NCBI GenBank assembly: GCA_001564055.1
Contig: LKNB01000002.1
Location: forward strand, 62,001 to 126,000
Length of the DNA: 64,000 bases
Direction: 5' to 3'
Source of the DNA: Rhodothermaceae bacterium Tc-Br11_B2g6_7
Lineage (GTDB): Bacteria > Bacteroidota > Rhodothermia > Rhodothermales > Salinibacteraceae
Positions 16,768 through 27,444 of the stretch are shown here, piece by piece (position 1 is the stretch's first letter; every line of letters begins with the position of its first letter). The translations under genes were made by a program, and so were the position numbers. The notes under the pieces were generated by a model. That model was given only the letters and a program-made list of their open reading frames with translations. It was not told the DNA's origin and ran no database searches.

Positions 16768-18192
16768 ATGCTATCCAGCTTCACCACACGCCTCACGTGG
16801 TTGCTCTTCCTGTGTACCGTCGGCGCACTGGTCGTCCATGCCGTAGCGGGTCTTGATGTGTCCCTCGGCGCACTGCTGCGTATTGATGGCCTGACGCTCA
16901 TCATGGCCGTCGTGGTCACCTTTGTGAGCGGTATCGTACATAGCTTTGCCCGGCGCTATATGGCCGGCAGCCACCACGGTGGCCGTTTCTTTAGTCGGCT
17001 CTTCGGCCTTACACTCGTCGTTTTACTCCTCACGGCGGCAGATCACCTGGCGCTGTTCGCCGGCTGTTGGGCGCTCATGGGCTGGTTGCTGGCTGATCTC
17101 ATCGGGCTCATCCGAGGCTGGCCACAGGCCCGAGCAGCGGCTCGCCACGCGCGCTGGTCGTTCCTCGGCGGTAGTGTACTGCTGGCTGCTGCGCTTGCCT
17201 TGCTGGCGGGGCAGACGGGCGCGACAACTATTTCCGCGGCGCTAAGCCGCATCGAGAGCCTGCCAGTAGGGACGCTTGCCAGTATCGCTGGATTGCTCAT
17301 TGTAGCGGCCATGATCCAGTCGGCCCTCATTCCGTTTCACCGTTGGTTGCTATCCTCAATGACGGCGCCCACCCCGGTTTCAGCGTTTATGCACGCGGGG
17401 TTGGTGAACGCCGGCGGTCTATTACTGGCGCGCTTTGCTCCTGTCGTGGCCGGATTGCCTGAGGTGATGCTCGCCGTGGTGGTGGTAGGCGCCCTCAGCG
17501 CCCTGCTTGCGCAGGCGTGGATGCTGGTGCAGGTGGATGTAAAGCGACAGCTCGGCTGTTCCACCGTGGCGCAGATGGGCTTTATGGTACTGCAGTGCGG
17601 GCTTGGCTATTTCGCTGCGGCGATCGCTCACCTGGTTTTGCACGGCTTCTACAAAGCCTACCTGTTCCTTTCGTCGGGGTCGACCGTAGTGATGAAGCCG
17701 CCCGGCGCCGAAGCCAGGGACGCCTCAGGCGGGCCTGCGCTCGTGGTGACAGGTCTGACGGCGGTAGCGGGGGGTGGGCTCTTCATGTGGTTCACGGGCA
17801 AGTCGATTGCCGCGCCTGATGGCGGATTGCTCCTAACGCTTGTGGTGGTGCTGGCTGTATTGCATGCAGCGCATACCATGCTGCGCACCACAGCGCTTAG
17901 CGCGCCAACGCGGGCCGTTGCGGTGCCGCTCGTGGTGCTCCCTGCCCTGGCATTATATGCCCTGGTGTATAACGGCATCGTCGCCCTGACGGCTACCACG
18001 CCTATGGCTACGGCTCCCGCCGAGGGCTCTGTGGTTCATGGCCTGGTAGGCGCACTCTTCGTGCTGGCGTACATTGCTGTTGAACGGGGCTGGCACCTCG
18101 AGCGGCCGCGCCTCTACACGCTGCTGCTGAATACGTCGCAACCCGCGGCTTCCACTGTTACTACGCATCGCACCGAGTATCATGCCCACTGA
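16768..18192 (+). CDS. dabB: DabB-type membrane subunit of the inorganic carbon accumulation complex (NuoL-like)
   Basis: A 474-residue integral membrane protein with about 13 helices, related to the proton-translocating subunit NuoL/MrpA (segments LLSSMTAPTPVSAFMHAGLVNAGG and VDVKRQLGCSTVAQMGF). In DAB systems it uses the ion gradient to drive bicarbonate accumulation by DabA. The ATG at 16768 starts just after the attenuator-like hairpin. Its last 11 bases overlap the start of dabA, which fixes the pairing and implies coupled translation. Confidence 0.93.
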   Translation: MLSSFTTRLTWLLFLCTVGALVVHAVAGLDVSLGALLRIDGLTLIMAVVVTFVSGIVHSFARRYMAGSHHGGRFFSRLFGLTLVVLLLTAADHLALFAGCWALMGWLLADLIGLIRGWPQARAAARHARWSFLGGSVLLAAALALLAGQTGATTISAALSRIESLPVGTLASIAGLLIVAAMIQSALIPFHRWLLSSMTAPTPVSAFMHAGLVNAGGLLLARFAPVVAGLPEVMLAVVVVGALSALLAQAWMLVQVDVKRQLGCSTVAQMGFMVLQCGLGYFAAAIAHLVLHGFYKAYLFLSSGSTVVMKPPGAEARDASGGPALVVTGLTAVAGGGLFMWFTGKSIAAPDGGLLLTLVVVLAVLHAAHTMLRTTALSAPTRAVAVPLVVLPALALYALVYNGIVALTATTPMATAPAEGSVVHGLVGALFVLAYIAVERGWHLERPRLYTLLLNTSQPAASTVTTHRTEYHAH

Positions 18193-20617
18193 TTTGTCTG
18201 CCCTCCGCGCCCGCGTCGAGAATGCTGCCAAAGTGCTTGGGCGCTGCTGGCCTTTGCAGTCCTACATCGCTGCTAACCCGCTGGCCGGGCTTGAAAAACT
18301 CCCGTTTGACGAAGCAGTCGCTGAGGGCCAAGCGCTCTACGGCGGGCGCGGGTATCCCAGCGTAGCGCAACTACGCGCGGCGTGGGACGCCGGAGCAATT
18401 AACGCCAACCATCTGGCCGATCGGCTGGAGGCCTATGGCTTTACGGAATCTCCAGCGCACCTTCTGGATCGGATGGAGGCTGCTACCCCACCCTCCGTGA
18501 ACCGATCAAACGATAGTCTGCTGAATCGTGTCATGGCGAAATGGCTGGCCGTGTTTGTGGACCAGGGACAAGCCACGTGGACTATGCCTCGTCGCCAAGA
18601 GGGCTTTTATGCCGCCTGGCGCGCCGTCGCACCATACGACACCACACTTGCCCATCGCGACTGCCTCCATGACCTTCCAGAGCGTCCCCTGGAGGCGTTA
18701 GCTGCGGCCCTGTCAGATGTTGAGCCATCGCAATGGGAGCGGGTCCTTCGGCATCACCTCACGGCCTTGCCCGGCTGGGCATCGTTTATCAAGTGGCGGT
18801 CGCAAGATCGGCACGACGCGTGGCAAGCCGCCCATCCCATTACGATGACGGGGTACCTTGCGGCGCGCCTGCACACGGCACGCGCTATCGGGCTACCGGT
18901 TGCTCCGGATGGCGTAGCCGAGGCGGCAGTGGGCGCTTCGCGTAATGGCCGCGACCGCCCCGCGATGGCGGCGCCCTGGTTGGAGGCCTGGGAAGCCACC
19001 TATCGCGAGCAGCTGCTACATGACGTGCAGGCGGCCGCCGCGACGATCCACACCGGGGCCGCGCCTGACCGGCCAAAGGCCCAGCTCGTGTTTTGCATCG
19101 ACGTCCGCTCGGAGGTGATCCGGCGGCATGTTGAGCAGGCGGGCCCGTATCAGACGTTCGGCTATGCGGGATTCTTCGGGCTGCCGATGCAGTTTCAGCC
19201 CTACGACAGCGACAACCGGATTACCGCGTGTCCACCTATCGTGGATCCGAAACACCGCATCCAGGAGGTATGCGGCGATCACCGGCCTGATGCTGCGGCT
19301 GCGCATGAGCGATGGGTAGCGCTTGGACGGGCATGGCAGCGGCTCATCAAATCGCTCAAGCACAACGTAGCTGCTGCTTTTGGCTTTGTAGAAGGCTCCG
19401 GCGGACTCTTCGGGGTGGCCATGGCTGCTCGGACGCTGATTCCTGGATGGCTCCGGACCCAGCATCAGGCGTGGGCGAAGCGCGTGCCTACGTCGGATAC
19501 CTTCTGTGATCTCTCCCTTGACCGCGCGCCCGCGGCCGACCATGCCGATGGATTGCCTGTGGGGCTGAGCGCCGAGGAGCGGTCGTATTACGCAGAGGCT
19601 GCCTTTCGCCTGATGGGATGGCAGCAGTTTGCCCCGGTGGTAGTCTTTACAGGGCATGGCAGCGAAACCGTCAATAATCCATACGCCTCAAGTCTGGACT
19701 GCGGCGCCTGTGCCGGGCATCCGGGCGGCCCCAACGCGCGAATCCTTGCGGCAATCTGTAACGACCCTGCCGTCCGCGAGGTGCTTTCCGAGCGCGGCAT
19801 CGTTATCCCCGAGGATACGGTATTTCTGGCGGCTGAGCATACCACCACCACCGATGCGGTGCGGCTCTTTCACCCGCCTACGCTAACCGAGCGGCAGGCC
19901 AAGATTGTAGACCAGCTTCGCCGGGACCTTCATACTGCTCGAGTCCAGGCTGCGGCCGAGCGTGCGCCGGCCCTCCAGGGGGCGCGCCGCAGCCATGCGG
20001 TAGCCGATACCGCGCGCCGTGCCGCCGACTGGGCAGAAACGCGCCCCGAGTGGGGGCTCTCCGGCAACGCCGCTTTCATTATGGCCCCACGAGCACTTAC
20101 CGCTGAGTTCTCATTGGACGGCCGCGCATTCCTGCATGCCTACAACTGGCAGACCGACGACCGAGGCACCGCGCTGGAAACAATCATGACAGGGCCCTTA
20201 GTCGTAGGCGAATGGATTAACATGCAGTACTATTTCTCGACGGTGGACAATGCCGTCTACGGCAGCGGTTCTAAAATCACGCAGAACGTGGTCGGAAACG
20301 TGGGGGTCTGGCAGGGGAACGGGGGGGACTTAATGACCGGGCTCCCGCTCCAGTCCCTGCAGGTTGATGATGCGACACCCTACCATCATCCGCTTCGGCT
20401 GTTGGCGGTAGTGTATGCGCCTCGAGCACGGGTCAGCCGGGTCATAGAGCGGAACGCCCAGCTCCGTTCGCTCTTCGACCATGAGTGGATGGCCCTCACC
20501 GTCCTGGATCCGGAGCACAGTAACAGGCGGTATGTGTACCAGCCGGGTGGCACGTGGGCAACGCCTTCTACTGAATCCCGGGACGATCAGGACACAGAGC
20601 CTGCCCTCGCGCTATAA
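18182..20617 (+). CDS. dabA: DabA (DUF2309), beta-carbonic-anhydrase-like subunit of the inorganic carbon pump
   Basis: An 811-residue peripheral membrane protein. The zinc-site pattern of DabA is intact: C305 and D307 in VFCIDVRSE, H492 in TGHGS, and C507 in DCGACAGHPGG. The H-to-C spacing of 15 and C-x-D spacing equal those described for Halothiobacillus DabA. In the known system DabA hydrates CO2 vectorially, with DabB supplying energy, so bicarbonate is trapped in the cytoplasm. It starts inside the end of dabB. The next two genes, a PII-like protein and a carbonic anhydrase, fit the same task. Confidence 0.96.
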   Translation: MPTDLSALRARVENAAKVLGRCWPLQSYIAANPLAGLEKLPFDEAVAEGQALYGGRGYPSVAQLRAAWDAGAINANHLADRLEAYGFTESPAHLLDRMEAATPPSVNRSNDSLLNRVMAKWLAVFVDQGQATWTMPRRQEGFYAAWRAVAPYDTTLAHRDCLHDLPERPLEALAAALSDVEPSQWERVLRHHLTALPGWASFIKWRSQDRHDAWQAAHPITMTGYLAARLHTARAIGLPVAPDGVAEAAVGASRNGRDRPAMAAPWLEAWEATYREQLLHDVQAAAATIHTGAAPDRPKAQLVFCIDVRSEVIRRHVEQAGPYQTFGYAGFFGLPMQFQPYDSDNRITACPPIVDPKHRIQEVCGDHRPDAAAAHERWVALGRAWQRLIKSLKHNVAAAFGFVEGSGGLFGVAMAARTLIPGWLRTQHQAWAKRVPTSDTFCDLSLDRAPAADHADGLPVGLSAEERSYYAEAAFRLMGWQQFAPVVVFTGHGSETVNNPYASSLDCGACAGHPGGPNARILAAICNDPAVREVLSERGIVIPEDTVFLAAEHTTTTDAVRLFHPPTLTERQAKIVDQLRRDLHTARVQAAAERAPALQGARRSHAVADTARRAADWAETRPEWGLSGNAAFIMAPRALTAEFSLDGRAFLHAYNWQTDDRGTALETIMTGPLVVGEWINMQYYFSTVDNAVYGSGSKITQNVVGNVGVWQGNGGDLMTGLPLQSLQVDDATPYHHPLRLLAVVYAPRARVSRVIERNAQLRSLFDHEWMALTVLDPEHSNRRYVYQPGGTWATPSTESRDDQDTEPALAL

Positions 20618-20661
20618 GATCCCGTATACCGCTACCGTTACACTGACAGAACCCTGGTGCC

Positions 20662-21033
20662 ATGAGTGATACGTCGCATAACATAGAGCACACGCTACAT
20701 CCGCTCAAAAAGATTGAGATCATCGTTAAGGGCAAGCGCGAACATTTCGTGCAAGACCTCTTGGAGAAATCCGGGGTGAGCGGATATACGATCCACCGAA
20801 ACGTGGCCGGCAAAGGAGCCAGTGGCTTCCACGAAGGTCATCTGTTATTCAATGATGAGGCCAGCCTGGTGATGTTTTTCGCCGTTAGTGACCAAAGCAA
20901 AATACAGGCGATCATCAACGGGCTATCGCCGCTGTTTGAAAGCAGCTCTGGTGTCATGTTTGTATCTGACACCAAGGTTGTTCGGCTGACAAAGTTCTTG
21001 AGCGCGGAAGGTCAGCAAGACGACGGCTCGTAG
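20662..21033 (+). CDS. PII-like signalling protein linked to carbon uptake
   Basis: A 123-residue protein with the ferredoxin-like PII fold: KKIEIIVKGKREHFVQDLLEKSGVSGYTI at the start and VMFVSDTKVVRLTKF at the end. The classic T-loop Tyr51 region is replaced by an N-V-A-G-K-G-A-S segment, as in carboxysome/DAB-associated PII-like proteins such as CPII, one of which binds bicarbonate and adenine nucleotides. It follows dabA by 44 bases, so an allosteric sensor or regulator of the pump is likely (inference). Confidence 0.87.
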   Translation: MSDTSHNIEHTLHPLKKIEIIVKGKREHFVQDLLEKSGVSGYTIHRNVAGKGASGFHEGHLLFNDEASLVMFFAVSDQSKIQAIINGLSPLFESSSGVMFVSDTKVVRLTKFLSAEGQQDDGS

Positions 21034-21133
21034 GCACACCGACGATGCGCGGGGCGCCGGCACGGAGGCGGATCATACCGTTGGCAGGGTCATACGACCT
21101 CATCCACACTACCTTCACATCTGGCGTGGATAC

Positions 21134-21775
21134 ATGCCCGATCGTTTGCTGCAGCGCAACCGGGAGTGGGCGGCAGGCCACACGCCAGGTTTTTTCGACA
21201 AGCTCACCGAGCGTCAGACGCCACGATTCCTATGGGTGAGCTGCTCCGATAGTCGTGTGCCTGCCAATGAAATTGTGGGTTGCGAACCCGGAGACCTCTT
21301 TGTACATCGCAACATCGCCAACCTCATCGACCATGGGGATCTTAACGCCCTTTCAGTGCTGCAGTATGCGGTAGACGTCTTAGCGGTACCGCACATTATC
21401 GTTTGTGGCCATTACCAGTGCGGTGGTGTGCGGGCAGCCATGGAGCACACCGACCACGGACTCATCGACAACTGGTTGCGGCCCATCAAGGATATCTACC
21501 ATCGCCATGCCGATGAACTGGAGGTCATGGATACTGAACAGGCCCGCTGGGATCGGCTCTGCGAACTGAATGTTCGAAAGCAGATCCGCGATGTAGCCTG
21601 CTCCACGATTGTCCAGAAGGCATGGCAGCGAGGGCATGAACTGACCATCCACGGGTGGATCTATCGGCTTGACGAGGGGCTGATTCGTGACATGGATGCG
21701 TCTATCGACGGACCGCAACAGGTGCCCGCGATCTATCGGTCGGGCCCCGCACGGGCGGTGGCCAAAAACAAGTAG
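21134..21775 (+). CDS. can: Beta-class carbonic anhydrase
   Basis: A 213-residue zinc enzyme interconverting CO2 and bicarbonate. Zinc ligands C37, H93 and C96 and the Asp39-Arg41 dyad (CSDSR, HYQCGG) are all present, with the same spacing as E. coli Can. There is no signal peptide, so it is cytoplasmic. Beside a bicarbonate-accumulating pump it would supply CO2 or bicarbonate to carboxylases. It is about 100 bases behind the PII-like gene and is probably the last gene of the unit. Confidence 0.96.
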   Translation: MPDRLLQRNREWAAGHTPGFFDKLTERQTPRFLWVSCSDSRVPANEIVGCEPGDLFVHRNIANLIDHGDLNALSVLQYAVDVLAVPHIIVCGHYQCGGVRAAMEHTDHGLIDNWLRPIKDIYHRHADELEVMDTEQARWDRLCELNVRKQIRDVACSTIVQKAWQRGHELTIHGWIYRLDEGLIRDMDASIDGPQQVPAIYRSGPARAVAKNK

Positions 21776-21846: not shown

Positions 21847-22662
21847 TTATGAGTCCGGCGACTGATCAGATCTGAACACCGGCTCAAACTCTTGCAGCGA
21901 CATGCCCTTGGAGATGTCTTGGCCAGATGGGTCCCGCTCCAGCTCTAACTCATACGCTACGCGGTCGCTCCGGTAGTAGCGCTGCTGGTAGTAGATGATC
22001 TTATCGCCTGTGGCGAACGAGGTCCGCGCAATGCGCAGGACGGCGGTGCCTTCGGCTATGCGGAGGGGTTCAGCCACATCGCCTGGTGCGTCAACAGCTT
22101 CAATACGATAGCGCCCTCGTTCGACCTCAATGTCGTAGCTCGCCAGGACAGCGTAGATGGTCTCACGCTCCAGGTCATGGCCGCGCAGGAGTTGCGCGTA
22201 AAACACGGGCAGAAACGTCCGATCGAATGCAATGGGGGTGTCATCCGCCAGCCGCAGGCGGTCCAGGCGTTGCACCTTGTCCCCTGGTTCCAGCCCCAGC
22301 AGATTGGCCACACGTGGCGTGGCTGGCTCCAGCTCTTGCGCCAACACATCCGATCGGGCCTCGAGCCCGGCTTGGCGCATGTCCTGTGCGAAATCCGTCA
22401 GACGCACCAGGCCTTGCCTCACAGGAGGCGTTTGCACGAACGAACCCAGCCCTTGCCGCCGATAAATGTAGCCTTCGTTTTCGACGGTCTGTAACGCGCG
22501 CCGGACCGTCACCCGGCTAACACCAAACTGATCGCCTAAGGCGCTTTCTGATGGCAGCTGATCGCCCGGTTCGTATACGCCGGACTGGATTTGCTCTCGC
22601 AGCCAATCGCTAACCTGTTCATGACGCGGAGTATCGGGTTTGAGGGGGGGACCGGAAGGCAT
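21847..22662 (-). CDS. GntR-family (HutC subfamily, UTRA) transcriptional regulator
   Basis: A 271-residue regulator. Residues 12-80 form the winged helix (LREQIQSGVYEPGDQLPSESALGDQFGVSRVTVRRAL), and residues 95-250 form the UTRA ligand-binding domain. HutC-type proteins usually sense sugar phosphates, amino-acid derivatives or similar metabolites; the effector here is unknown. No metabolic operon adjoins it. It converges with the carbonic anhydrase gene. Candidate palindromes containing GTATAC lie in its own upstream region, consistent with autoregulation. Confidence 0.93.
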   Translation of the reverse strand: MPSGPPLKPDTPRHEQVSDWLREQIQSGVYEPGDQLPSESALGDQFGVSRVTVRRALQTVENEGYIYRRQGLGSFVQTPPVRQGLVRLTDFAQDMRQAGLEARSDVLAQELEPATPRVANLLGLEPGDKVQRLDRLRLADDTPIAFDRTFLPVFYAQLLRGHDLERETIYAVLASYDIEVERGRYRIEAVDAPGDVAEPLRIAEGTAVLRIARTSFATGDKIIYYQQRYYRSDRVAYELELERDPSGQDISKGMSLQEFEPVFRSDQSPDS

Positions 22663-23968: not shown

Positions 23969-24277
23969 TCACTCGTCCTCGACAGGAACCACTTGCCCCG
24001 TGGGCGTGATGCGTTCCCCTTCTCGTGGCTTGGTCGTCGGGAAACTTGAGAGCGGTACATCGGGGTTGCGGTCCTCGGGTACGTAGTGCACATGGTCCCC
24101 ATGCGGAATCGCGATGTAAGGCTCGCCGCCAAAGGGGTCGATGACATCGGTCATAGCATACGCGAGCAGGAGTAACACGACGATTACGGCAATCCAGCGC
24201 CGTTTGAACGAGCGTTCACCGCGATCCGGCGTGCCATCCGGGCGTGTGGCTTTAGGTGTGGAGGAGGGGGCCGTCAT
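23969..24277 (-). CDS. Small membrane protein with HGDHVH histidine-triad motif
   Basis: A 102-residue protein: a Pro/Arg-rich cytoplasmic start, one membrane helix (about residues 28-45), then an extracytoplasmic tail containing Y-I-A-I-P-H59-G-D-H62-V-H64-Y-V-P. The HxxHxH pattern and flanks resemble the zinc-binding histidine triad (HGDHYH) of streptococcal Pht surface proteins. No enzyme domain is visible. It lies about 70 bases after, and on the same strand as, a gene for a regulator with a zinc ribbon, so a metal-binding or metal-relay role is a reasonable inference. Confidence 0.75.
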   Translation of the reverse strand: MTAPSSTPKATRPDGTPDRGERSFKRRWIAVIVVLLLLAYAMTDVIDPFGGEPYIAIPHGDHVHYVPEDRNPDVPLSSFPTTKPREGERITPTGQVVPVEDE

Positions 24278-24346
24278 AATACCATTGCTGCTTCAGGGGC
24301 AGACGTCAAGAGAGGGGCTACGGATGCTGAGGCATAAGGCCTGCTG

Positions 24347-24682
24347 CTACACTAACTGCTCTTCTGCACATTGTGGACATTCCAGCCACTGTTCATTTGG
24401 AATGCGATCGAGGGCTTTGGGGCTGCGCCCGCGTTCAAACACGGGTCGGAAAAGGACGTCGCCCTCCTCGTGCACGGTGCTGCACGTATGGCACGCGGCC
24501 TCGTGGTCGATGCGTGTTGGCGAGTAGCCGGCTACCACCCAGCCATCATGCCCGATGTGGGTGGCCAGGCTCTCCAGGGCGGCGCGTACCGTCTGCGATT
24601 TGTTACCGCTGTAGTACGTCTTCGAAATATTTTCGAGCAGCTCGATCGTTGCCTCGTCGAGCGTGAAGTTAAGTCGTTTCAT
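24347..24682 (-). CDS. Ribbon-helix-helix regulator with C-terminal zinc ribbon
   Basis: A 111-residue protein. Residues 1-42 (KRLNFTLDEATIELLE...SQTVRAALESL) fit a MetJ/Arc ribbon-helix-helix DNA-binding domain. The C-terminal half has two Cys pairs, C64-x2-C67 and C102-x2-C105, plus nearby His residues (60, 65, 71), a probable zinc ribbon or metal sensor. It is divergent from the merC-like gene, and the spacer between them holds palindromes. I infer a metal-responsive repressor; I do not recognise a named family. Confidence 0.8.
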   Translation of the reverse strand: MKRLNFTLDEATIELLENISKTYYSGNKSQTVRAALESLATHIGHDGWVVAGYSPTRIDHEAACHTCSTVHEEGDVLFRPVFERGRSPKALDRIPNEQWLECPQCAEEQLV

Positions 24683-24783
24683 TCGTTTTGCTCCTAACGA
24701 GTGTTAATGGAGGGCGAATCGGGTGGGGGTCTCGTGCACAGCTACGCTGTCGCCTCCAAACACAGCTCCCTTGTGTCTGGCTA

Positions 24784-24804
24784 TGCGTATAATGTACACA
24801 CGCA
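24784..24804. promoter_or_regulatory. Imperfect 21-bp palindrome, candidate operator
   Basis: TGCGTATAATGT...ACGCA has complementary outer arms (TGCGT / ACGCA) and an inner TGTACACA resembling half of the perfect palindrome 150 bases away. It overlaps a TATAAT hexamer, so a bound regulator would cover a possible -10 element. Confidence 0.45.
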
Positions 24805-24937
24805 GGCGGAACCATAGTTTCCAAATATGACCTGCGTACAGCGCCCTGCGAGACGGATTCAAAACACCACCCCGGTAACAACGTTGCCAATTAAGCCACA
24901 TACAAACGTAGCCTTCAGCGCGCGTGGAACCTTGCAT

Positions 24938-24957
24938 GTGTGTATATATATACACAC
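24938..24957. promoter_or_regulatory. Perfect 20-bp palindrome upstream of the merC-like gene, candidate operator
   Basis: GTGTGTATAT followed immediately by its exact reverse complement ATATACACAC, 33 bases before the merC-like start codon. RHH proteins bind as dimers of dimers to such symmetric repeats. The size, symmetry and position suggest the operator of the divergently encoded RHH/zinc-ribbon protein, but binding is not shown. Confidence 0.65.
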
Positions 24958-24990
24958 GTAAGTTTATTTTCTATCTACCCGTATAGCGGT

Positions 24991-25422
24991 ATGTCGTCGA
25001 AATGTCCCACCTGCACTCCCTCCAAAGATGACGAAGGGGCCCATCCTTTTTGGGATCGCTTGGGTATCGGTCTTTCGCTGGCCTGCTTGATTCACTGCCT
25101 GACCCTTCCTGTTGTTGCGTCAGGGTTGGCCATCTGGGCAGCCGTAGACCTACACCTCTGGCTTGCCCTACTGATCGTCCCCATCGCCGGCGTCGTTGCG
25201 TGGAATGCACACCGGACGCACCGGCACCGGTGGGTGGGGCCCTTGCTCCTTTTAGGAAGCGCCTGCATCGTCGGAGCGATTCTGCTTGATCCGTTTGTAA
25301 GTGCCTGGACTGAAACGGCCGTTACGGCCATCGGCAGTGTCCTCGTAGTCGCGGGGCATTGGATTCACTACCGTGCCAGCCAGTCCGTACGCCGTACAAT
25401 GGCCGTGGGATCGGATGCTTGA
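24991..25422 (+). CDS. MerC-family membrane protein
   Basis: A 143-residue protein with four membrane helices. The first helix carries the MerC-type pair SLACLIHCLTLP (Cys and His-Cys), expected to bind a soft or transition metal. An N-terminal C-P-T-C adds a second candidate metal site. In mercury operons MerC imports Hg(II), but chromosomal homologues without merA, as here, are of unknown or possibly zinc-related function. The ATG at 24991 removes 17 codons that overlap the palindrome. The stop codon overlaps the start of the flavoprotein gene by 8 bases. Confidence 0.82.
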   Translation: MSSKCPTCTPSKDDEGAHPFWDRLGIGLSLACLIHCLTLPVVASGLAIWAAVDLHLWLALLIVPIAGVVAWNAHRTHRHRWVGPLLLLGSACIVGAILLDPFVSAWTETAVTAIGSVLVVAGHWIHYRASQSVRRTMAVGSDA

Positions 25423-26593
25423 CTGGTTAATTGTAGGCGGAGGGATCCATGGTACGCATCTCTCGCACGTGTTAACGGCGCAGGCTGGCGTCCAACGCCA
25501 CCGCATCCGGGTGCTGGACCCCTGGCAGGAACCGCTCGCTCGATGGCACGCCTGTACGCAAAATACCGGCATGGGCTACCTGCGCTCCAGCTTGGTCCAC
25601 CATCTGGCGCTGCATCCGTTTGACCTGAAGCACTTTGCTGAACGCGAGGACGGCACGGGGCACCCTTTTGCGCACCCGTACAAGCGCCCTTCGCGTGCAC
25701 TCTTTGCGGATCATTGCCGCCACGTCATCGCGACGCACGGCTTACGGGACCTGCGCTTGCAGGGCCGCGCCTCTGGGCTGCAGGCATGCGCGGGCGGCGA
25801 TGGATATGTCGTTGAGACATCCGATGGTGCCCTCCGGACGCGGCGGGTGCTGCTGGCGCTTGGGACGAGCGAGCAGCCCTGCTGGCCCGATTGGGCGACG
25901 CGCCTACGCAATGAGACTGCGCCCATCCAGCATATTTTTGAACCGTCGTTCGAGCGCACCGCCTGGCCACTGGAGGGGCACACCCTTATTGTGGGAGGGG
26001 GCATATCCGCAGCGCAGATCGCTATGGCCCTGTACCGAGCCGGCGCAGATCAGTTGACGCTGCTCCGCCGGCACGCCGCGCGTGTGCACCAACTTGACAG
26101 CGATCCCGGCTGGATGGGGCCCAAGTATCAAACGGCCTTCCAAAAAATAGCCGATTGGGATGCCCGGCGTGCAGCGGTTGATAAAGCGCGGCATCGGGGC
26201 GCCGTTCCTCCACGATTACACCGGCGTCTCATGCGGATTGGGCAGCGGGATCGCCTAACGATTCAGACCGGAGAGCTGGCGCGGATGGAGTACGCGGCGA
26301 ACGGACACTTTGTCGGTTGCCTTGCGCGCAACGGCGACCCCATCACAGCAGATCGCATTCTGTTAGCCACCGGTTTCGCGCGGGTCCGGCCTGGCGGGGC
26401 GTGGCTTGCGCGCGCTATTCATACGCTTGGCCTTGCCTGTGCTTCCTGTGGCTATCCCATCGTGGACGCCTCGTTGCAGTGGCACCCGGGGCTCTTCGTC
26501 ACGGGACCGCTGGCCGAGTTGGAGATCGGGCCTGTAGCGGGTAATATCGTTGGCGCACGGCAGGCTGCCGGGCGTATCGCAGCCGCCGCCTGA
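25415..26593 (+). CDS. FAD/NAD(P)-binding oxidoreductase (flavin monooxygenase-like)
   Basis: A 392-residue flavoprotein. An FAD-binding Rossmann motif is at the start (LIVGGGIHGTHLS), and a second dinucleotide motif (LIVGGGISAAQIA) lies near residue 200, with the late LLATGF signature. This order resembles lysine/ornithine N-hydroxylases (SidA/IucD) and other class B monooxygenases. No siderophore synthesis genes adjoin it. It overlaps the merC-like gene by 8 bases, so the two are translated together, and the flavin enzyme probably works in the same metal-linked process. The substrate is unknown. Confidence 0.8.
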   Translation: MLDWLIVGGGIHGTHLSHVLTAQAGVQRHRIRVLDPWQEPLARWHACTQNTGMGYLRSSLVHHLALHPFDLKHFAEREDGTGHPFAHPYKRPSRALFADHCRHVIATHGLRDLRLQGRASGLQACAGGDGYVVETSDGALRTRRVLLALGTSEQPCWPDWATRLRNETAPIQHIFEPSFERTAWPLEGHTLIVGGGISAAQIAMALYRAGADQLTLLRRHAARVHQLDSDPGWMGPKYQTAFQKIADWDARRAAVDKARHRGAVPPRLHRRLMRIGQRDRLTIQTGELARMEYAANGHFVGCLARNGDPITADRILLATGFARVRPGGAWLARAIHTLGLACASCGYPIVDASLQWHPGLFVTGPLAELEIGPVAGNIVGARQAAGRIAAAA

Positions 26594-26682: not shown

Positions 26683-27444
26683 ATGCCCATGCGCCACACG
26701 CTCTACTTGCTTTTGCCGCTACTCGTTCTGCTGGCTGCCTGTAATAATGACGACGCCCTGCCCAGCGTAGCCGATGACCGGTCCTTCGAAAACGACACCC
26801 AGCTCATTCAACGAGCCGACCGGGCACGTATGTATGGCACCGATACGACGCGGGTAACAGTGGATGAGTATGTTGATTACGCATGCCCCGACTGCGCCGA
26901 CTTCCATGTAGAGCGGATGGACTCGCTCCGCACCCAGTTTGTAGACACCGGCCAATTTAACTTTGTCGTACGGTTCTACCCGATCCCGCGCCTCATGCGC
27001 GGTTTTCATGCGGCAGAAGCGGCCCTCTGTGCGGGCGCGTTTGGTGGACGCGCCGCGTTTGAGGGGATGCAAGATCGCCTGTTGCGCGAGCAGGACCAAT
27101 GGCGTCAGCTTCACAATCCGCAGGCACAGTTTGTGTCCTACGCCGACGACCTGAATCTGCCCATCGATGTATTTCTTGATTGCCTCGACCGCAGCGCGAC
27201 AGCACCGCTGATTCTCGGTGATTTGCAGTTGGCTGCGCAGGCTCAGGTAGAAGGTACTCCGACGTTTGTGTACAACGTGCCCGGGCCCTATGCCGGGGTG
27301 GTATCGTTCTATGGCAACCAGCCCATGGCACGGTTCCAGGAAGCGCTGATGGTGGCTTGGGGAGCACTGGAGGAGGATTCAGACCAGGAGACCGTAACCG
27401 AGACGGATGCGTTGCAGCAGGGGACACCATCGTCAAGCCTCTAA
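26683..27444 (+). CDS. DsbA-like thioredoxin-fold lipoprotein
   Basis: A 253-residue lipoprotein (lipobox L-A-A-C, Cys20) with a DsbA/DSBA-like thioredoxin domain. The active site is C68-P-D-C71 after VDEYVDYA, and the cis-proline loop is V-E-G-T-P-T-F. It would oxidise or isomerise thiols of exported proteins. The last 35 residues are an acidic, Ser/Thr-rich tail. It could be cotranscribed with the CPBP gene 20 bases downstream, and it lies about 90 bases behind the flavoprotein. Confidence 0.9.
   Translation: MPMRHTLYLLLPLLVLLAACNNDDALPSVADDRSFENDTQLIQRADRARMYGTDTTRVTVDEYVDYACPDCADFHVERMDSLRTQFVDTGQFNFVVRFYPIPRLMRGFHAAEAALCAGAFGGRAAFEGMQDRLLREQDQWRQLHNPQAQFVSYADDLNLPIDVFLDCLDRSATAPLILGDLQLAAQAQVEGTPTFVYNVPGPYAGVVSFYGNQPMARFQEALMVAWGALEEDSDQETVTETDALQQGTPSSSL

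Follow-up and report, generated by a model that had tools for sequence, protein, structure and literature searches.

Which signal does a small divergent locus carrying a short putative regulator respond to, and is the regulator of a known kind? We addressed this question for four genes from the genome of Rhodothermaceae bacterium Tc-Br11_B2g6_7, which lie in a 64,000-nucleotide stretch of DNA analysed as a whole (the window). The contig derives from a genus of halophiles of the Salinibacteraceae type. The original prediction described a metal-responsive module of two divergent gene pairs, and all four open reading frames were present. The features of the locus are as follows:

23969–24277, minus strand: single-span His-triad protein, 102 aa, open reading frame confirmed
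24347–24682, minus strand: RHH/zinc-finger regulator, 111 aa, open reading frame confirmed
24783–24801, no strand: probable operator 2 on the RHH side, ATGCGTATAATGTACACAC, N5 form with two mismatches, about 100 bp 5' of the RHH start
24938–24957, no strand: candidate operator 1, GTGTGTATATATATACACAC, perfect 20-bp palindrome 33 bp 5' of the MerC start
24991–25422, plus strand: MerC-family membrane protein, ATG at 24991, 143 aa, CxxHC motif, PF03203 match with E=1.8e-20
25415–26593, plus strand: FAD/NAD(P)-binding oxidoreductase (flavoprotein), ATG at 25415, 392 aa, NAD_binding_9/Pyr_redox

The divergent regulator family and its setting

The RHH and MerC genes diverge from a 308-bp spacer (24683–24990), in which the predicted symmetric repeats were recovered as the perfect palindrome at 24938–24957 and the weaker one at 24783–24801. 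The MerC and flavoprotein genes overlap by exactly 8 bases (25415–25422), as described; the RHH and His-triad genes are indeed tightly spaced, although by 69 bases and not 70. The proposed metal-binding motifs were likewise found in three of the products, as C64HTC67 and C102PQC105 in the RHH protein, HGDHVH in the His-triad protein and CLIHC in the MerC protein. A PHROGs search gave no match. In each of the genus's three genomes, the flavoprotein gene is followed by one for a DsbA/thioredoxin-like lipoprotein with a CPDC motif (window 26683–27444), which may be co-transcribed with it. Elsewhere in the window (16768–21775), we noted a cluster resembling DAB-type inorganic-carbon uptake systems, with DabB-like (16768–18192), DabA-like (18182–20617), P-II-like (20662–21033) and carbonic-anhydrase-like (21134–21775) genes and a divergent GntR/UTRA regulator (21847–22662); all but the regulator were named by eye. 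In the sister species G001, another DabA-like gene lies immediately upstream (L087 811–3321).

Searches of Pfam and NCBIfam returned no match for the RHH protein; no Pfam RHH model passed, and the Fur winged-helix domain (PF01475) was absent. A profile match to NikR (1q5v, residues 1–80), in turn, covered its first 75 residues (E=9e-5), and the N-terminal strand-helix-helix with polar strand residues characteristic of the RHH superfamily is present (RLNFTLD...GNKSQTVRAAL). The ACT-like nickel domain of NikR is absent from the 111-residue protein, in which the residues past the NikR match carry CxxC...CxxC instead. An AF2 model (pLDDT 86) placed helices at residues 10–23 and 28–43, with the N-terminal strand not resolved in the monomer; its fold matches were weak (best E=0.08), with NikR on top and zinc-binding C1 domains matching part of the protein. 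Scanning 84,980 species genomes yielded 60 loci, 59 of them with a full-length protein, and an alignment of 49 of these proteins contained 32 invariant columns, including C64, C67, C102 and C105, together with a nearly invariant His45. Computation from sequence thus defines a family in which a predicted RHH domain at the N terminus is joined to a C-terminal, zinc-finger-like Cys4 domain, whose modelled fold weakly resembles zinc-binding C1 domains.

By record title, the relatives belong to Rhodothermota, Balneolota, Armatimonadota and Chloroflexota, several of these labels coming from metagenome-assembled genomes in which mis-binning is possible. Within the same order, 16 of 60 relatives carry the RHH gene, and the tree of this short protein was too poorly resolved to distinguish transfer from descent. 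Two Longimonas-type loci (L145, L154) hold an orthologue between phosphoesterase-like and phosphoribosyl-pyrophosphokinase-like genes, with no MerC, zinc genes or palindrome nearby.

A conserved palindrome upstream of the regulator

An inverted repeat, first found as an element common to the RHH upstream regions of unlike families, has the consensus GTGTGTA-N5/6-TACACAC, with nearly constant half-sites around an AT-rich, variable core. Candidate operator 1 is the sole match with up to two mismatches in the 64-kb window (0.11 expected), and operator 2 the sole match to the N5 form (0.08 expected); the sister species has a similarly placed counterpart of the latter. Across the 59 loci (693 kb), we counted 42 palindromes with at most one mismatch against a mean of 0.17 for permuted decoys, all of them upstream of the RHH gene within 1.6 kb, and the median distance from palindrome to next start codon was 25 bp. 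In L180, ACACAC half-sites flank the -10 element (TATAAT) of a sigma-70 promoter matching at 12 of 12 positions, and in Fimbriimonadales TATAAT runs into TACACAC some 20 bp 5' of the start. Such placement and promoter overlap are those of a predicted repressor site.

These counts bear on the most sceptical reading, namely that the genes are chance neighbours and the palindrome an intrinsic terminator or AT-rich repeat. A terminator scan does flag 24936–24959, and the exact four-gene set and order was found only in the three genomes of the window's genus. The excess over decoys, the constant promoter position, the varied cores and the conserved half-sites speak against it, however, as does the fact that the sites precede start codons instead of following genes. 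Both the RHH–MerC pairing and the palindrome are found again in several phyla, which is beyond chance; this conservation already contradicts the sceptical reading, which we regard as very improbable.

To what extent the palindrome marks a wider regulon is a separate matter. Exact N6 sites in 18 whole carrier genomes numbered one in 14, two in one and none in three, and the single sites checked by coordinates were those of the MerC–RHH operon. Among the 60 relatives, 15 N6 sites fell in 7 of the 16 genomes with RHH as against 4 sites in 4 of the 44 without (p=0.005), a significant if modest enrichment; when the N5 form was counted, 14 of the 16 had a site at the RHH operon, and the two exceptions lack MerC. 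Most Balneolota have an exact site at the RHH operon itself only, so the breadth of the regulon is uncertain. We discarded a more permissive pattern (GTGTR-N6-YACAC), which gave about as many sites as a backward control in several genomes, and sites with three mismatches in the window's own genome (51 versus 46 in the control). The sites in RHH-lacking genomes (G022, G030, G036, G040), and some in RHH carriers (G055 C79, G034 C39), were set aside as chance occurrences inside genes or by unrelated genes.

Beyond the locus, the window's own genome has just one other N6 site with at most one mismatch, 27 bp upstream of a CobW GTPase gene, and the sister species has a site with a different core at the same place. 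In G034, sites precede a TonB receptor–DUF1826–CobW–CobW series and a DUF2946–TonB pair. Palindromes before zinc-import or COG0523 genes, a feature of Zur-type regulons, are present in these loci. Weaker sites that we followed in the window's genome (C41, C84, C107) had no recognised zinc gene adjoining. As a further observation, a different flavoprotein (Pyr_redox_3, CzcO-like) is divergently placed at an exact operator in G034 (L127 5267–8315, G034:C75), and a truncated relative of it lies in a TonB–CobW–ZIP cluster of G016 (L242 7420–7722, G016:C7); flavin enzymes are recurrent in these predicted regulons.

Gene neighbourhoods and the choice of metal

The neighbours of the RHH gene point to a metal. 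Its recurrent companions are znuABC, ZIP, COG0523/CobW GTPases, an ABC–MacB–DUF3299 (Zrg-like) set and TonB receptors, as located by a simple codon-usage gene caller for which some starts may be off. RHH is followed by znuA-znuC-znuB in two Chloroflexota-labelled loci (L180 and L198; PF01297, PF00950), overlapping znuA in L198. In Fodinibius (L159), MerC and RHH are separated by a ZIP-family gene that scores below the Pfam cut-off; further ZIP genes occur near RHH in L186 and L188, and RHH accompanies ABC–MacB–DUF3299–CobW in L164, L174–L176, L182 and others. A zinc-type family (CobW, DUF3299, MacB permease, ZIP or ZnuA/B) lay within 8 kb of RHH in 26 of the 59 loci, many of which end early at contig ends, compared to 1 of 20 arbitrary 16-kb stretches (p=0.0008), a small control drawn from two genomes and applied to families that had partly been chosen from the RHH loci themselves. 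In several Armatimonadota members, no zinc gene adjoins RHH.

DUF3299 corresponds to ZrgE of the Vibrio Zur regulon, which zinc limitation strongly induces in Vibrio parahaemolyticus (PMC9817125), and DUF1826 and COG0523 are predicted members of Zur regulons (PMC2770081). Because these partner families match known Zur regulons, and ZIP and ZnuABC agree, zinc is the best choice of metal, on the sum of the indications rather than any single proof. A metal homeostasis module with an RHH regulator, as originally proposed, is supported in this way, with zinc genes recurring beside RHH relatives and zinc the most likely metal.

The same regulator and operator could instead serve another signal, be it a different metal (for example, cobalt, manganese, iron or copper) or redox and thiol state, with a purely structural Cys4 site. 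ABC-3 importers also carry manganese, COG0523 members serve several metals, the RHH relative NikR senses nickel, and a FecCD-type importer lies about 0.6–2 kb downstream of a one-mismatch site in G034; the flavoprotein and the nearby DsbA-like gene would suit a redox signal. Against this, ZIP, ZnuABC, DUF3299, DUF1826, CobW and Fe/Mn-SOD together indicate zinc, and nickel or cobalt transport genes were not seen in the loci. We consider such a different signal unlikely, though it is the most plausible of the alternatives to zinc sensing.

Several other gene types were observed in these neighbourhoods. Fe/Mn superoxide dismutases with a signal- or lipoprotein-like N terminus occur in zinc clusters (L089 13237–14052; L102 7417–8190; L149 9951–10721) and possibly stand in for Cu,Zn-SOD to spare zinc under shortage. 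ArsP_1 (YraQ-type) permeases, possibly a further metal permease of this circuit, lie beside RHH in Armatimonadota/Chloroflexota (L192 6999–7907; L196 6890–7954) and beside a His-triad gene in G034 (L243 8163–10064). Small His-rich secreted proteins, DUF2946-like but mostly below cut-off, are often encoded 5' of the TonB receptor in zinc clusters (L089 6402–6749; L133 10651–11022; L149 11972–12298).

The expected co-occurrence of all four families held for RHH–MerC and for MerC–flavoprotein, both recurrent pairings, and failed for the His-triad protein. A MerC-family gene adjoins RHH in 43 of the 59 loci, and in most RHH genomes the two are neighbours, on the same strand or divergent; 24 of the 60 relatives have a MerC homologue. 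The window's protein is a genuine family member (73.9 bits against a PF03203 cut-off of 27.6), and its name invites the view that the locus confers resistance to mercury or soft metals. The regulator, however, is not of the MerR family, no merR/T/P/A was recognised among the MerC neighbours in the loci read, and the adjoining genes are those of uptake. We therefore hold mercury or soft-metal resistance to be highly unlikely; compared with known MerC proteins, the one here has a zinc-import context and a CxxHC motif, with no mercury operon.

Full-length flavoprotein orthologues were found in only 6 of the 60 relatives, and all orthologues found sit in zinc-type clusters, those of other families and of Balneolota included. 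In G032, G035 and G056, they lie away from any RHH gene, amid ABC ATPase, MacB-type permease, DUF3299, MerC and CobW GTPase genes; two Balneolota orthologues (L149, L167) do have RHH in their cluster, with CobW and a TonB receptor as neighbours. Judged by this context, the flavoprotein belongs to the predicted RHH/MerC zinc module. With its two dinucleotide-binding domains it resembles YpdA/Bdr and ArsO-type enzymes, but it scores far below the respective NCBIfam cut-offs (27.3 vs 339.9 and 23.8 vs 425 bits) and carries a conserved CxxCG of its own close to the C terminus (invariant C342xxC345), potentially a redox or metal site. Profile comparison with the PDB returned general thioredoxin-reductase-type matches only, and the window's genome encodes a separate, more distant homologue of the fold (C2).

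The His-triad protein is order-wide, being present in 58 of 60 relatives as against 16 for RHH, and is beside RHH only in the window's genus. It is not of the Pht type, with one triad and 18.5 bits against a PF04270 cut-off of 27. Its distribution marks it as a presumed accessory that is not tied to the RHH regulator. A zinc role nevertheless stays plausible, because the His-triad family often neighbours ZIP or CobW genes: in several further genomes of the bacterial family, homologues have ZIP genes close by (Pfam-confirmed for G016); the G008 homologue adjoins CobW, and a second G016 copy stands between a TonB receptor and CobW–ZIP.

The predicted circuit among known metal sensors

Taken together, we consider it probable that the RHH protein, as a candidate, is a zinc-dependent repressor of zinc uptake that does the job of Zur in these bacteria. 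With RHH linked to importers and its site overlapping the promoter, zinc is most likely the corepressor, as in Zur. Zinc at the Cys4 site, perhaps also at His45, would let a pair of RHH dimers occupy both half-sites, thereby blocking the promoter; at low zinc, the protein would release DNA, and MerC, the flavoprotein, TonB receptors, ABC/ZIP importers and CobW zinc chaperones would be made. From the window's spacer, one regulator would control itself, the downstream His-triad gene and the MerC–flavoprotein pair, with the CobW GTPase gene as a second target in the genome. The flavoprotein would act as a zinc-starvation enzyme; at the level of a guess, MerC may carry zinc across the inner membrane, with the His-triad protein perhaps passing it on in the periplasm. 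Counting against the repressor reading, nearly every relative has a Fur-family gene, the single one in the window's genome lying elsewhere (C72), and this gene may itself be Zur.

The proposed regulator resembles Zur in predicted role, in its targets (znuABC, COG0523, DUF1826, Zrg/DUF3299, TonB receptors) and in its promoter palindrome, but Zur has the Fur winged-helix fold, whereas the protein here is an unrelated 111-residue RHH with a zinc finger, and the operators differ. Like AdcR of the MarR family, it would be a non-Fur repressor of zinc uptake, AdcR however being a winged-helix protein. With NikR, its best PDB match in sequence and fold, it shares the N-terminal RHH and the regulation of metal import, but it has a Cys4 finger in place of the ACT-like nickel domain. 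The operators also differ, that of NikR being GTATGA-N16-TCATAC and the one here GTGTGTA-N5/6-TACACAC.

The two families credited with up-regulating zinc import in a 2018 review are Fur (Zur) and MarR (AdcR) (PMC6103462), and our search of open-access papers found no RHH zinc regulator. We lean, with less assurance than for the repressor role itself, towards a third structural class of zinc-uptake sensor, an RHH protein gated by a Cys4 finger, which would replace Zur in Rhodothermota and Balneolota, reach Chloroflexota and Armatimonadota, and have the flavoprotein as a new zinc-starvation enzyme. If true, this sensor would add a third family in phyla with little-studied zinc control. Because the operator is so well conserved, its regulons should be readable by pattern search; the operator would further tie the orphan MerC-like, DUF3299, DUF2946, flavoprotein and His-triad families to zinc, making a zinc role testable for each.
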